Part shown: positions 28,420 through 34,660 of the stretch, piece by piece
How positions within the stretch are numbered: position 1 is the stretch's first letter
Layout: every line of letters starts with the position of its first letter
Virus record (IMG/VR): IMGVR_UViG_3300049919_000146
Span: 1-37,269 of that record
Direction: 5' to 3' (one strand)
Source of the DNA: a virus
Length of the DNA stretch: 37,269 nt
The notes under the pieces: generated by a model
What the model saw: only the letters and a program-made list of their open reading frames with translations
What the model was told of the DNA's origin: nothing
Databases searched by the model: none
Position numbers and translations under genes: made by a program

Positions 28420-28615
28420 GGGTTACGAAAATGGAATACCCGACGAGGCCGACCCAAGACTTGAAGGCATGGGACTTGCACCTTCATATAGACAAATTTG
28501 CCGGGCCATTATCAAAAACGATGCGGCCCTTACCTCGCTTGGTTTTAGTCGGCCTAAATGCGAAACTTATTCATTCTTAAAAAAAATTGAGATTGAAGCA
28601 AGGGAGAAAAAATGA
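28376..28615 (+). CDS. Free-standing copy of the IbrA C-terminal motif
   Basis: This is a 79-residue protein with GGGAG eight bases before its ATG; it overlaps the previous gene by 44 bases. The core NGIPDEADPRLE (19-30) and LAPSYRQICRAIIKNDAALT (34-53) then LGFS matches the C-terminus of the 438-residue protein coded next, where the line reads IPTYKRMCVCIMKNDHLCKY followed by MGFS. The shared pattern is P(S/T)Y(R/K)..C..I.KND......GFS. From memory the GIPDEAD-x-L-E plus this pattern is the normal end of DUF3440/IbrA proteins. So a normally fused module exists here as its own gene, joined to IbrA by ATGA. Confidence 0.75.
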   Translation: MQDKVGKYVSSWMLKGYENGIPDEADPRLEGMGLAPSYRQICRAIIKNDAALTSLGFSRPKCETYSFLKKIEIEAREKK

Positions 28616-29928
28616 ATGTTTTTGAAGCATCCGAAGAACGGATAGGAAAGATTTTTAATGAATTTGATAATGTCTATGTTTCATTTAGTGGAGGCAAAGA
28701 TTCCGGAGTATTGCTTAATCTCTGTATTGACTACATAAGAAAAAATCTTCCAGGTCGCAAGCTTGGAGTTTTTCATATTGATTACGAAGCTCAATATCAA
28801 ATGACTACGGACTACGTTGATCTGGAATTTTCAAAAAATAAAGACATTATTGAACCATATAGGATTTGCCTCCCTGTCGCTGCCAAGTGTGCAACGTCAA
28901 TGTACTCTGACCACTGGATCCCATGGGACAAAAAGGCCAGTGACCTTTGGGTTAGAGAGTTACCCAAAGAATCAATCAATGAAGATAACCATGAGTTCGG
29001 CTGGTTCGTTAAAGGCATATGGGACTATGACCTTCAAGTGAAGTTCTCTGAATGGATACATGAAAAGAAAAAAGCAAAACGAACCGCTTGCCTTGTTGGA
29101 ATTAGAACCGATGAATCACTTAATAGGTGGCGCGCAATTCATAGTGATAAAAACAAAAATAAATTTAAAGAACTATCATGGACACTTAAGCTTGAAAAAA
29201 ACATCTATAATGCCTACCCGATATATGACTGGAAGGTAGAAGATGTGTGGATAGCAAACGCAAAACTGGAATGGGACTACAATAAACTATATGACCTTTT
29301 TCATAAGGCCGGTGTGCCAATTGGTAAACAGAGGGTCGCAAGTCCTTTCCATGATTCTGGAATAGAAAATCTAAAATTGTATAAAGTTATAGACCCTAAA
29401 AATTGGGGTAAAATGATAGGCCGTACAAATGGAGTTAATTTCGCTGGCCTCTACGGAGGCACCACTGCAATGGGGTGGAAAAATATTAAACTACCAAAGG
29501 GTCATACATGGAAAAGTTATATGGAGTTTTTACTCTCTACTCTTCCAAAGGAGACCGCCGATGGCTACCGAAAAAAGCTTGCGATTAGCCAGGAATTTTG
29601 GCGCAAAACTGGCGGATGCCTCTCGAAAGATACGATAAAAAAACTTAAAGACCACAAGATTAAATTCTCTAAGGGTAAAGGAACCAAACGTCACACTAAC
29701 AAGATACCCATAACAATGGAATACCTGGACGATATAGACATCGATGAGTTTCAGTTAATACCGACCTATAAAAGAATGTGTGTTTGTATTATGAAGAATG
29801 ACCATCTTTGCAAGTACATGGGGTTCTCACTCAATAAGACAGAGACCGAGTTAAGGGAAAGGGCCGAAAAAGACTTTAAGAATACTTTTAAAGAGATTAA
29901 GAAAAAATATAAGGAGATCAAAGAATGA
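28612..29928 (+). CDS. IbrA-like PAPS-reductase-family protein
   Basis: This is a 438-residue protein. The adenylyl-binding P-loop VSFSGGKDSGVLLNLCID is at about 23-40, with SGGKDS at 26-31. A second conserved block GIRTDESLNRWRAI lies at 163-176, followed by WTLKLEKNIYNAYPIYDWKV. These place it in the PAPS reductase/ATP pyrophosphatase superfamily, DUF3440 (IbrA) branch. The C-terminal about 55 residues hold the P(S/T)YKRMC...KND...GFS motif shared with the small protein upstream. IbrA and IbrB regulate eib genes in E. coli; pairs of this kind in phages lack an agreed role. It overlaps the ParB-like gene by ATGA. Confidence 0.85.
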   Translation: MNVFEASEERIGKIFNEFDNVYVSFSGGKDSGVLLNLCIDYIRKNLPGRKLGVFHIDYEAQYQMTTDYVDLEFSKNKDIIEPYRICLPVAAKCATSMYSDHWIPWDKKASDLWVRELPKESINEDNHEFGWFVKGIWDYDLQVKFSEWIHEKKKAKRTACLVGIRTDESLNRWRAIHSDKNKNKFKELSWTLKLEKNIYNAYPIYDWKVEDVWIANAKLEWDYNKLYDLFHKAGVPIGKQRVASPFHDSGIENLKLYKVIDPKNWGKMIGRTNGVNFAGLYGGTTAMGWKNIKLPKGHTWKSYMEFLLSTLPKETADGYRKKLAISQEFWRKTGGCLSKDTIKKLKDHKIKFSKGKGTKRHTNKIPITMEYLDDIDIDEFQLIPTYKRMCVCIMKNDHLCKYMGFSLNKTETELRERAEKDFKNTFKEIKKKYKEIKE

Positions 29929-30440
29929 AAACATTTATGAGTCCCGTTTATCATGTTGTTGGAGTTCCAGTAGATAAAATCAGGGCCAACACCTACAACC
30001 CAAACAGCGTAGCGCCTCCTGAAATGGAATTACTTGAAGTATCCATATGGGAGGACGGCTACACGATGCCAGTGGTTTGCTATTACATAGAAGAAGAAGA
30101 CGTTTACGAAATAGTAGATGGGTATCATAGATATACGACACTAAAAACAAGTAAAAGAATTTTTGAGCGAGAAAGAGGCATGTTGCCAGTCGTGGTTATT
30201 CAAAAAGACCCATCTAATCGAATGGCCTCAACGGTAAGACATAACAGAGCAAGGGGTTCTCACTCAATAGACTTGATGTCTAATATTGTTTCCGAATTAA
30301 CTAAGGCAGGAATGAGTGACGCCTGGATTCTTAAACACGTAGGAATGGACAAGGATGAACTCTTAAGGCTTAAGCAAATTACAGGAATAGCAGGGTTGTT
30401 TAAAGATAAAGAATTTAGCGAAGCATGGGACGAGACATGA
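29925..30440 (+). CDS. IbrB-like ParB-domain protein
   Basis: This is a 171-residue protein. The ParB/Srx-like fold is visible: VPVDKIRANTYNPNSVAPPE (14-33), then a box with VDGYHRY (about 65-71) corresponding to the ParB GERR position, then RARGSHSIDLMSNIV (105-119) and a small HTH-like end (AGMSDAWILKHVGMDKDEL). In the family this half pairs with the PAPS-reductase-like IbrA. It is coupled to IbrA in front and to the next small gene behind by ATGA overlaps. It is likely to bind nucleotide and possibly DNA; no partition gene parA is present. Confidence 0.85.
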   Translation: MKTFMSPVYHVVGVPVDKIRANTYNPNSVAPPEMELLEVSIWEDGYTMPVVCYYIEEEDVYEIVDGYHRYTTLKTSKRIFERERGMLPVVVIQKDPSNRMASTVRHNRARGSHSIDLMSNIVSELTKAGMSDAWILKHVGMDKDELLRLKQITGIAGLFKDKEFSEAWDET

Positions 30441-31204: not shown

Positions 31205-31573
31205 ATGTCGAAAGAAATTGAAGTGATTAGCATTAATGGAGTTGATTATGTCAAAAAAGACGCGATCAAGTCTTTTCCCCAGAAAGATGGTTTAAAGTAC
31301 GCCATCGTAAGAACTTATTCGGCAGGAGTTTTTGCCGGATATATCGAATCGCAAAATGGTCAAGAGGTTATAATGATTAATGCTAGAAGATTATGGCAAT
31401 GGGCCGGTGCTGCCTCTCTTTCTCAGTTTGCAATGGAAGGAACTTCAGCACCAAAAAGCTGTAAGTTTCCATGTGAGGTGGATCGCGTAAAACTTATGCA
31501 GGCAATAGAGATTCTGGATGCTACACAAAAATGTAAAGAATCTATTGATGGTGTCCCTGTATGGAAAGCGTAG
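31205..31573 (+). CDS. DUF6948-like phage protein
   Basis: This is a 122-residue protein. AIVRTYSAGVFAGYIESQNG (about 37-56) then ARRLWQWAGAASLSQFAMEG (61-80) and SCKFPCEVDRVKLMQAIEIL (about 85-104) form the conserved line of a small, widespread phage family that I remember as DUF6948. Its function is unknown. It is preceded by AAGGAG, and its stop overlaps the start of the Gly-X repeat ORF. This family often lies beside such a repeat ORF in other phages as I recall; that should be checked. Confidence 0.75.
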   Translation: MSKEIEVISINGVDYVKKDAIKSFPQKDGLKYAIVRTYSAGVFAGYIESQNGQEVIMINARRLWQWAGAASLSQFAMEGTSAPKSCKFPCEVDRVKLMQAIEILDATQKCKESIDGVPVWKA

Positions 31574-31737
31574 TTAATATTGGCCATGGCTCTGGCGATG
31601 GCTCTGGCTATGGCTATGGCTCTGGCTCTGGCGATGGCTCTGGCGATGGCTCTGGCGATGGCTCTGGCTCTGGCTATGGCTATGGCCATGGCTCTGGCTA
31701 TGGCGATGGCTCTGGCTATGGCTCTGGCCATGGCTAA
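31561..31737 (+). CDS. Gly-X repeat protein (58 residues)
   Basis: ATG 31561 lies inside the previous gene's last codons and opens MESVVNI, then 25 Gly-X pairs with X drawn only from Ser, Asp, Tyr and His, then a final Gly before the TAA. Every Gly is GGC and every X codon is TCT, GAT, TAT or CAT. The frame stays open to the end of the array. No strong ribosome-binding site precedes it, so translation probably depends on coupling. It has no obvious fold; its Asp/His/Tyr content could bind metal or phase-separate. The opposite strand gives an Ala-X ORF that lacks support. Confidence 0.5.
   Translation: MESVVNIGHGSGDGSGYGYGSGSGDGSGDGSGDGSGSGYGYGHGSGYGDGSGYGSGHG
31582..31734 (+). repeat. Hexanucleotide array GGC-NNT, about 25 units
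   Basis: The array is a run of GGC followed by TCT, GAT, TAT or CAT. Unit length is exactly six bases throughout and no unit is out of register. Such arrays expand and shrink by slippage, so length probably varies between relatives. Confidence 0.9.
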
Positions 31738-31830: not shown

Positions 31831-31971
31831 ATGAAGTTTACACTAATTTACTTATGGCTACTTTCGATACTTGGATCGATCTTTCTTGGTCATGAAATTT
31901 CGCTCATGTTTCCAGCTAAGAAAGAGCAAGGATACGATTTTAAGAACACATTGCATGCGTTTAGAGAATGA
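31831..31971 (+). CDS. 46-residue membrane peptide
   Basis: This ORF starts at ATG 31831 after AAGAGGG (seven bases) and is MKFTLIYLWLLSILGSIFLG for its first 20 residues, one transmembrane helix, then a charged tail (AKKEQGYDFKNTLHAFRE). Its stop overlaps the methyltransferase ATG (ATGA). The strong ribosome-binding site and coupling support it. The methyltransferase itself has only a weak site, so this peptide may be what delivers ribosomes to it. Function unknown. Confidence 0.65.
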   Translation: MKFTLIYLWLLSILGSIFLGHEISLMFPAKKEQGYDFKNTLHAFRE

Positions 31972-32873
31972 AAAAAGGAAAGTTAAATGGAATCAGCTTA
32001 TTTACTGGATATGCAGGAATTGACCTTGCCCTTACCGATTACGTTAGACCCTTGCTCTATTGCGAAATCGAAAGATACGCTCAGGGAATTTTGCTTTCAA
32101 GAATGGCGGACAATGCAATCGATTTCGCTCCAATCTGGGGTGACGTTAGAACTTTGGACGGAAACCAATTTAAAGGCCTGGTTGACATTATTTACGGGGG
32201 ATTTCCCTGCCAGGACATTAGCGTTGCAGGAAAGGGCGCAGGACTGGAAGGAAAGCGAAGCGGTCTTTTTTTCGAAATCATCCGAATTTGCAAAGAATCA
32301 TCCCCTCAATTTATTTTCCTTGAAAACGTGCCCGCAATTAGAACCAGAGGAGCTCTCGAAGTGCAAGAAGCTCTGGCCTCAATCGGGTATGATTGTCGAT
32401 GGACTACTTTATCCGCTTCCGAAGTTGGCGCAAATCACAAAAGAGAAAGATGGTTTTGTCTTGCTACCAACACCAATAACGGTAGACAACGGAAGTCGAT
32501 TCAACAAGTCGGCGAGCTCAGGAGCAAAGAATCGGCCCACATTGGGAGCAATGGCAAAGTTCGAATTATGGCCAACTCCGACAGTTTGCGGAAACTACCA
32601 GAACAAGAATGGAATGAAAGGACTTGCTACGAAAGTGAAGGAGTCGGATACGACTCCTTGTGCGAGAGACTGGAAGGACAACAACTCTCCATCAGAACAC
32701 AGAAGAAACACACCGAAATTAGCGACTCACGCTGGTGGCAAACTGAACCCGACGTGGGTCGAGTGGCTAATGGGGTTGAATTCAGAGTGGACAGAATTAA
32801 GGCCTTGGGTAACGGAGTGGTTCCTTTGCAAGTCAAAACGGCGTTTGAAAAACTAATAGGAATTTCGGAATGA
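31968..32873 (+). CDS. DNA cytosine-5 methyltransferase
   Basis: This is a 301-residue enzyme that transfers a methyl group from S-adenosylmethionine to cytosine C5. Motif I is ISLFTGYAGIDLA (9-21), with the first Gly of the usual FxGxG displaced. Motif IV is GGFPCQDIS with catalytic Cys81. Motif VI is FLENV (117-121), motif VIII is KRERWFCLA (158-166), and motif X is RVDRIKALGNGVVPLQV near 275. The length is short for a Dcm, so the target-recognition part (about 170-265) is small. A second frame is open across nearly all of the gene. It probably protects phage DNA from host restriction; no matching nuclease is seen. Confidence 0.92.
   Translation: MKKGKLNGISLFTGYAGIDLALTDYVRPLLYCEIERYAQGILLSRMADNAIDFAPIWGDVRTLDGNQFKGLVDIIYGGFPCQDISVAGKGAGLEGKRSGLFFEIIRICKESSPQFIFLENVPAIRTRGALEVQEALASIGYDCRWTTLSASEVGANHKRERWFCLATNTNNGRQRKSIQQVGELRSKESAHIGSNGKVRIMANSDSLRKLPEQEWNERTCYESEGVGYDSLCERLEGQQLSIRTQKKHTEISDSRWWQTEPDVGRVANGVEFRVDRIKALGNGVVPLQVKTAFEKLIGISE
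31987..32856 (+). CDS. Second long ORF overprinted on the methyltransferase gene (+1 frame)
   Basis: This is a 289-codon frame inside the methyltransferase gene. Its ATG follows AAGGAAA by about five bases, a site provided by codons 2-5 of the first gene. It contains blocks I know from stand-alone phage and bacterial proteins annotated near Dcm: GDFPARTLALQERAQDWKES (71-90), WPQSGMIVDGLLYPLPKLAQ (130-149), WPTPTVCGNYQNKNGMKGLA (195-214) and GKLNPTWVEWLMG (251-263). The block LNPTWVEWLMG is read from the same bases as EPDVGRVANGVE of the methyltransferase, and FPARTLALQ from the same bases as FPCQDISVAG. The function is unknown to me. Confidence 0.65.
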   Translation: MESAYLLDMQELTLPLPITLDPCSIAKSKDTLREFCFQEWRTMQSISLQSGVTLELWTETNLKAWLTLFTGDFPARTLALQERAQDWKESEAVFFSKSSEFAKNHPLNLFSLKTCPQLEPEELSKCKKLWPQSGMIVDGLLYPLPKLAQITKEKDGFVLLPTPITVDNGSRFNKSASSGAKNRPTLGAMAKFELWPTPTVCGNYQNKNGMKGLATKVKESDTTPCARDWKDNNSPSEHRRNTPKLATHAGGKLNPTWVEWLMGLNSEWTELRPWVTEWFLCKSKRRLKN

Positions 32874-33769: not shown

Positions 33770-34660
33770 ATGAAAACAATAGTAATTAAGACACAAGAAG
33801 AATTAGATTTATTACCATTAAAATTTGATGAATACACGGTAATTGAAATTAGATCAACTTCTAACATTTGTGTGAAACAAGCTAGGGAAAATTCCAGGGT
33901 TGAAGCTAGGGGAAATTCCAGGGTTGAAGCTTGGGGAAATTCCAGGGTTATAGCTAGGGAGAATTCCAGGGTTATAGCTAGGGAAAATTCCAGTGTTGAA
34001 GCTTGGGGAAATTCCAGGGTTGAAGCTAGGGGAAATTCCAGGGTTATAGCTTGGGAAAATTCCAGGGTTAAAGCTTTCTTGTGCGCTACTGTCTTTGTAT
34101 TTTCAATCTATGTGACAGTTAAAAAACTTTTGGATAATTCTCATCTTGTTTACAAAAAAGCCGACTGTAAAAGACCGGAGCAAGTAGATTCATCGGCAAA
34201 GATCACTAAGTTTAAAGACTTAATCACACCCACTTTTGAGCAATGGTTAGAGCGTGGTTACGTTGTTGCTGATGGCATAACTCAAAAGCTTGTCTCGAAA
34301 AAAACAATTGGCGAAGTCACAATCTTTGAAACCACTGACTTTTTTGAAAAAGAAAAAGCGTATGCTGCCAAGCTTGGTAATAAGTTTGCTCACGGTAAGA
34401 CAATCGAAGAGGCAAAAAATGATCTTCGGTACAAACTTTCCGACAGAGATACCTTGGAATATAAATCATGGGACATTGTAGATCAAAAACCAATTGATGA
34501 AATGATCGAAGCCTATATGGCCATAACTGGAGCTTGTTCGTTTGGGACTAGGCAGTTTTGCGAGTCACACGTTTTAAAGTCTGAATACTCTCCAAAGGAT
34601 ATTATTGAGTTAACAAAAAATAAATACGGCAACGAAGCCTTTACGGCTTTTTGGAATTAA
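33770..34660 (+). CDS. Repeat-bearing (beta-helix-like) phage protein
   Basis: This is a 296-residue protein with AAAAGGAAAAT before its ATG. Residues 1-37 are a small alpha/beta opening (MKTIVIKTQEELDLLPLKFD). Residues 38-101 are eight copies of an eight-residue unit of the form A(R/W)(E/G)NS(R/S)V(E/I/K), expected to stack as a parallel beta-helix. A hydrophobic segment follows (LCATVFVFSIYVTV). The C-terminal domain (about 140-296) has FEQWLERGYVVADGITQKLV, NKFAHGKTIEEAKNDLRYKL and ITGACSFGTRQFCE, a block I know from phage proteins with such repeats. Function unknown. Confidence 0.75.
   Translation: MKTIVIKTQEELDLLPLKFDEYTVIEIRSTSNICVKQARENSRVEARGNSRVEAWGNSRVIARENSRVIARENSSVEAWGNSRVEARGNSRVIAWENSRVKAFLCATVFVFSIYVTVKKLLDNSHLVYKKADCKRPEQVDSSAKITKFKDLITPTFEQWLERGYVVADGITQKLVSKKTIGEVTIFETTDFFEKEKAYAAKLGNKFAHGKTIEEAKNDLRYKLSDRDTLEYKSWDIVDQKPIDEMIEAYMAITGACSFGTRQFCESHVLKSEYSPKDIIELTKNKYGNEAFTAFWN
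33881..34072 (+). repeat. Eight in-frame 24-bp tandem repeats
   Basis: The unit reads GCT AGG GAA AAT TCC AGG GTT GAA with single-base variants, mostly R/W at codon 2, E/G at codon 3 and E/I/K at codon 8. It fills exactly 192 bases in register with the gene. The high identity between units indicates recent expansion or gene conversion. Confidence 0.9.

Follow-up and report, generated by a model that had tools for sequence, protein, structure and literature searches.

Overlapping reading frames in a phage locus probably encode one C5-cytosine methyltransferase as two polypeptides

The DNA analysed here (the window) is the whole 37,269-nucleotide stretch of the viral record IMGVR_UViG_3300049919_000146 from IMG/VR. 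In it two long genes are read from the same bases, and this overlap is real, with two coding frames that are widely conserved among relatives. We estimate at about 0.83 the probability that the locus encodes one C5-cytosine methyltransferase as two polypeptides in overlapping frames, after the manner of M.EcoHK31I. Enzymes of this class are laid out as motifs I to VIII, a variable recognition region and motifs IX and X. The first product (ORF1, alpha) is without motif IX, the second (ORF2, beta) appears to contain it and the pieces are colinear on the DNA, so that a two-subunit enzyme is the most likely reading (Table 1).

Table 1 Features of the overlapping methyltransferase genes in the window.
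Feature	Positions	Strand	Remarks
ORF1, alpha; C5-cytosine methyltransferase catalytic part, 301 aa	31968-32873	+	motifs I-VIII and X, without IX
ORF2, beta; 289 aa, +1 frame, ATG start	31987-32856	+	N-terminal overprint, LPTP/WPTP recognition-region-like part, probable motif IX
AAGGAAA, probable Shine-Dalgarno sequence of ORF2	about 31973-31979	+	within the first codons of ORF1; consensus match only
Alpha motif I region ISLFTGYAGIDLAL	31992-32033	+	
Alpha motif IV with catalytic Cys GGFPCQDISVAG	32196-32231	+	C81 invariant in the alignment
Beta FPARTLALQERA	32203-32238	+	same bases as alpha motif IV
Alpha motif VI FLENVP	32316-32333	+	
Alpha motif VIII HKRERWF	32436-32456	+	
Beta recognition-region-like segment	32457-32739	+	basis includes the single-ORF relative L349
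Beta LLPTPITVD	32461-32487	+	within the recognition-region-like segment
Beta WPTPTVCGNY	32569-32598	+	within the recognition-region-like segment
Beta probable motif IX KLNPTWVEWLMGLNSEWTEL	32740-32799	+	hhalign to canonical IX and shuffle null
Alpha motif X ALGNGVVP	32802-32825	+	ORF1 frame resumes right after beta IX

Results

A sequence-only reading of the window had reported a methyltransferase gene overprinted by a 289-codon ORF in the +1 frame, and both ORFs were recovered exactly where it had placed them. The openness of the second frame exceeds chance: in 300 synonymous shuffles of the ORF1 codons, the ORF2 interval acquired a mean of 5.7 stops and never stayed open. The start of beta lies 19 nt downstream of that of alpha and, as read directly from the sequence, is preceded at a spacing of about 8 nt by an AAGGAAA that is indeed built from ORF1 codons. 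The blocks singled out in that reading also share bases with methyltransferase blocks as it had claimed, positions 32203-32238 of beta lying on 32196-32231 of alpha, and positions 32740-32799 on an alpha stretch that reads EPDVGRVANGVE from 32745 onward.

To avoid selection on the tested feature, 80 IMG/VR loci were fetched by the ORF1 family alone, and the landmark interval was defined in alpha only (motif IV to EPxVGR). The +1 frame was open in 65 of the 66 alpha-selected loci with these landmarks, against 1.6 expected, and contained a single stop where synonymous shuffling predicted 228; loci from GTDB genomes had none against 186 expected. Between motifs VIII and IX, +1 stops numbered 0 against 86 and 0 against 63 expected, and +2 stops were near expectation. 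The +1 translations were also alike between diverged loci (mean BLOSUM 0.83 versus -0.09 in alpha-preserving shuffles, z 82), with z still at 57 when the null shuffles were kept free of stops. Similarity in the +2 frame exceeded its own null too, but more weakly, presumably through the constraint that beta places on the shared bases. Among 70 close pairs with duplicates removed, substitutions silent in alpha and changing in beta were depleted (SN/SS 0.41 versus 0.82 for the +2 frame). The sequence-only reading was right in seeing two coding frames here, and the +1 frame is conserved. A dNN/dNS of 0.54 was rejected as a stand-alone test and was not relied on, since a control stretch gave 0.64.

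Profile matches of a second frame can echo the first, and a synonymous-shuffle control was therefore needed. A beta profile from whose construction both the window and the alpha-selected loci had been excluded scored 123 bits on the C-terminal half of the window ORF2, with a maximum of 62 in 20 shuffles. Full-length shuffles of the window still reached a median of 143 bits against the beta profile; because synonymous shuffles of alpha score moderately, beta-profile matches alone are no proof. Those moderate scores are what can be said for the view that the +1 frame is open merely through codon usage or a DNA-level constraint and is untranslated. We consider this extremely improbable, given that the depletion of stops is confined to this frame and stretch and is absent in chromosomal and T4-like relatives, that real scores lie far above those of shuffles and that +1 similarity exceeds its null. 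Intact methyltransferases with stops in the +1 frame were found only in these other branches.

With ORF2 as query, overlapping counterparts turned up in phages that included those of Acinetobacter and Microcystis. Further sets comprised 80 IMG/VR loci fetched by ORF2 and 80 GTDB-genome loci fetched by the beta family, the IMG/VR sets being best-match samples with partly shared contigs. Beta overlapped alpha in the +1 frame in every locus of the fetched sets, and its C-terminal profile matched 247 of 247 loci and none of 80 single-chain phage controls. The expectation that the overlap persists in other phages was therefore upheld; it is present in each of the 247 relatives not belonging to a control set, and beta was free-standing in none. 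According to record titles, the genome loci span Pseudomonadota, Nitrospirota, Verrucomicrobiota, Actinomycetota, Bacillota, Bacteroidota, Planctomycetota, Synergistota, Patescibacteria and others. The arrangement is common to hundreds of phages and prophages; in the annotated window-type records examined, alpha is listed and beta is missing.

In 32 of 85 loci the beta start lies 4 nt past that of alpha, a distance at which a single ribosome site could serve both. The overlapping starts read ATGAATGAG in many relatives and GTGAATGAG in an E. coli prophage. The E. coli PCP07014 prophage (L430) has stops in both frames at about the same place (approximately 1860-1870) and its alpha is marked as a pseudogene in RefSeq, the overlapping pair having decayed.

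ORF1 matched PF00145 (E 9e-38) over residues 7-220 only, as well as PHROG 363, and its match to M.HhaI covered residues 6-168 only. Motifs I, IV (PCQ), VI (ENV) and VIII (RxR) are present and in order; motif IX is absent from the chain, the PF00145 and M.HhaI matches ending upstream of it. M.HhaI and M.HaeIII were the top Foldseek matches of the AF2 model, which is ordered at residues 1-182 and 273-298 and has pLDDT below 50 over most of 183-265. The alpha stretch opposite the recognition-like region of beta is accordingly predicted to be disordered, and looks like an overprint.

ORF2 matched PHROG 1008, 'DNA methyltransferase', over residues 65-236 (E 3e-22). PHROGs thus place beta-like proteins in a family apart from that of alpha (PHROG 363), under a name that tells neither of the second frame nor of the partnership with alpha. 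Searches of Pfam, NCBIfam and the PDB gave no match to ORF2. The N-terminal half of beta, opposite motifs I-VIII, had no detectable canonical counterpart and looks like an overprint on these motifs. The C-terminal end is a near-invariant LNPxWVEWLMGxPxGWT, of which NPxWVEWLMG is near-invariant in A1, A3 and A6. When beta was aligned by hhalign to a canonical profile of 63 single-chain phage methyltransferases, LNPxWVEWLMGWPxGWTDL fell on RLTPRECxRLQGFPDxxF, that is, on motif IX (E 1e-3, probability 20%). This direct score is modest, and the assignment leans on a mycobacteriophage bridge, in which the window-type beta aligned with the mycobacteriophage form of beta (E 2e-11) and the latter with canonical motifs IX and X over 54 columns (E 1e-5). 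Either canonical score was reached by 0 of 100 column shuffles; with just five canonical sequences, hhalign did not detect motif IX. The AF2 model of beta alone was poor (pLDDT 61, pTM 0.26), revealed no recognition-domain fold and was set aside; a chain that needs alpha in order to fold might give such a model.

On the window DNA, motif VIII (to 32456) is followed by the LPTP blocks of beta (32461-32598), motif IX of beta (32740-32799) and motif X of alpha (32802-32825); the canonical succession is thus preserved, and it is only the frame that changes. Judged from these alignments, the C-terminal half of beta is most likely the methyltransferase's own recognition region and motif IX, displaced into the other frame and colinear between VIII and X, and the recognition-like region probably sits in beta. 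The proposal that the second family was born by overprinting on dcm consequently fits the N-terminal half of beta and fails for the C-terminal half.

The pieces are divided differently in a mycobacteriophage form, in which alpha carries motifs I-VIII and beta, overlapping it only near VIII, carries the recognition region, IX and X, as in L348, Kyee and Inventum. Motifs IX and X occur together in the small subunit of Kyee, Inventum and L340-L348 and not in that of the window, where X is in alpha. Kyee gp78 reads GNPRLNAAFSEWMMGWEEGWVTD and then MKIIGNGVVVQQA, aligned to canonical IX and X. The separately annotated homologues near Dcm mentioned in the sequence-only reading do exist, as Kyee gp78 and Inventum gp69, but they are the partly overlapping downstream half of the enzyme and not an independent family. 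In L349 a single ORF runs through I-VIII, the LPTP repeats, motif IX and the beginning of X, and its near relative L348 has the same pieces in two frames; L349 is a metagenome contig whose single ORF could stem from an assembly indel. At 942-1884 of L350, a single-ORF methyltransferase harbours in its +1 frame a LAGLIDADG-like homing endonuclease sequence, YAAGLLDGEGCVLL, recalling the out-of-frame HNH insertions of mycobacteriophages.

Two further explanations can be weighed against these forms. Beta might be a real but independent accessory protein, for instance an anti-restriction or regulatory one, that overlaps the methyltransferase by chance. An N-terminal half with no canonical counterpart and blank Pfam, NCBIfam and PDB searches would agree with this, but we hold it to be improbable since the C-terminal block aligns with motif IX, the very motif that alpha lacks, the mycobacteriophage beta adds motif X, and L349 fuses the beta part with I-VIII. 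Programmed +1 frameshifting from alpha into the beta frame could instead yield, besides alpha, a long chain with I-VIII, the recognition region and IX, in keeping with the colinear motifs and with the natural single-ORF forms L349 and L350. Such a chain would miss motif X and would leave the open beta frame over motifs I-VIII unneeded, and beta has its own start near that of alpha in many loci, often after a ribosome-site-like sequence; we rate frameshifting as very unlikely.

Besides the proposed two-subunit arrangement of the window, a third partition was found in a Firmicutes-type set (L253, L254 and L260-L339). Here a single alpha chain holds I-VIII, the recognition region and both IX and X, and the beta C-terminus is absent. 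The +1 frame nevertheless stays open between IV and VIII in 70 of 73 loci, with 15 stops against 291 expected, and shows no depletion after VIII (553 against 517); in controls, +1 stops numbered 97 against 108 expected in chromosomal and 52 against 52 in T4-like/SPbeta genes. SN/SS was 0.42, compared with 0.83 after VIII and 1.36 for the +2 frame. The +1 ORF ends in csLsDILEexVdeKYfLS (post-VIII segment DILEENVDEKYFLS), and this end matches the canonical post-VIII segment, such as TRLRDILEDNVDEKYYLSEEKT in L356, with an hhalign probability of 94%, E 1e-7 and a score of 43.5 against a shuffle maximum of 16. Canonical enzymes carry the segment in the main frame; in the Firmicutes type it is present in alpha in 7 of 75 and in the +1 ORF in 53 of 75. 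Single-chain phage methyltransferases also drew matches from the beta HMM, but these were rejected as evidence of homology: shuffled Firmicutes-type genes reached a median of 27 bits, nearly as high as the 41 of the real ones. Over motifs IV-VIII, matches to the beta profile mostly echo alpha, and no homology is therefore claimed between the N-terminal parts of the two kinds of +1 ORF.

In a tree of motifs I-VIII, the window and mycobacteriophage types formed one group (100/93), in which the window row was long-branched, and the Firmicutes type was placed among canonical enzymes without the +1 frame. This placement suggests separate origins, the Firmicutes-type partition having arisen independently of the window type, although repeated loss of the +1 frame may account for it instead. 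A query for canonical relatives of the Helicobacter-prophage type found none. On balance we favour at least two independent moves of an enzyme piece into a +1 partner, with differing cuts, and consider it rather probable that coding a methyltransferase in overlapping frames recurs among phages and that many phage 'solitary Dcm' genes stand for two-protein enzymes with one half unannotated.

Discussion

In the proposed enzyme, alpha would supply SAM binding, catalysis and motif X, and beta would supply motif IX and probably target recognition too. Beta would be translated from its own start, with AAGGAAA in the window, and would have to join alpha for activity, as in M.EcoHK31I; translation of beta, assembly and DNA methylation are all proposed steps. 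The arrangement likely originated through compensating frame shifts flanking the recognition-IX segment of a single-chain ancestor.

In M.EcoHK31I the gene of the small subunit lies inside that of the large one, in a different frame, and the window and its relatives carry beta inside alpha in the same manner. M.EcoHK31I, described in 1995, recognises YGGCCR and is part of a restriction-modification system; its larger subunit has motifs I-VIII and X and its smaller subunit motif IX, and its predicted TRD was assigned in 2012 to alpha, not beta (PMC3404938). Compared by description, the division of motifs is the same as in the window. The window pair differs in being phage-borne, with no restriction gene recognised alongside, and in that its recognition-like region is apparently in beta, unlike the predicted TRD of M.EcoHK31I. 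The two-frame architecture was thus already known, the window being a phage member with variations, and this precedent makes the finding less new. The sequence-only reading, which knew of no description, was right insofar as we found no paper on overlapping phage dcm genes in the open-licence full-text literature, but it overlooked that M.EcoHK31I has the same motif division (PMC3404938). In the literature searched, no description seems to exist of the breadth over about ten phyla, of the mycobacteriophage form or of the third partition, that of the Firmicutes-type phages.

Another split C5-methyltransferase, M.AquI (CYCGRG), consists of two polypeptides divided in the variable region (PMC3404938). 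The mycobacteriophage form, with IX and X in beta, resembles it; the window differs in keeping motif X in alpha and in the almost full overlap of its genes. In a phage methylase gene with an out-of-frame second protein, that protein belongs to an inserted homing element unrelated to methylation (PMC11855218). The window resembles this case in that a phage methylase gene is read in a further frame for another protein, but it has no insertion and bears methyltransferase motifs in both frames.

Two ORFs consisting largely of short tandem repeats (ARAIARAIAIARAMA; NSRVEARGNSRVIA) flank the methyltransferase in the window at 31423-31731 (- strand) and 33770-34660 (+ strand). Phosphoadenosine phosphosulfate reductase-like and ParB-like genes lie upstream at 28612-30440, and a PAPS-reductase-like gene is also annotated next to the pair in phage C72C1 (L005). 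None of six flanking ORFs resembled restriction genes when compared with PHROGs, which cover restriction enzymes poorly. With a phage-borne pair and no recognised restriction gene in the vicinity, the likely role would be that of a solitary, protective phage modification methyltransferase.

Phage cytosine methyltransferases are annotated by the hundreds as single proteins. Recoding alpha destroys beta, and a recoded alpha would therefore be expected to fail if the second half of the enzyme lies in the other frame. The overlap is of a rare kind in that both products would belong to one enzyme, and the partial-overlap and single-ORF forms, together with the non-overlapping outgroups, make the origin of such overlaps testable.
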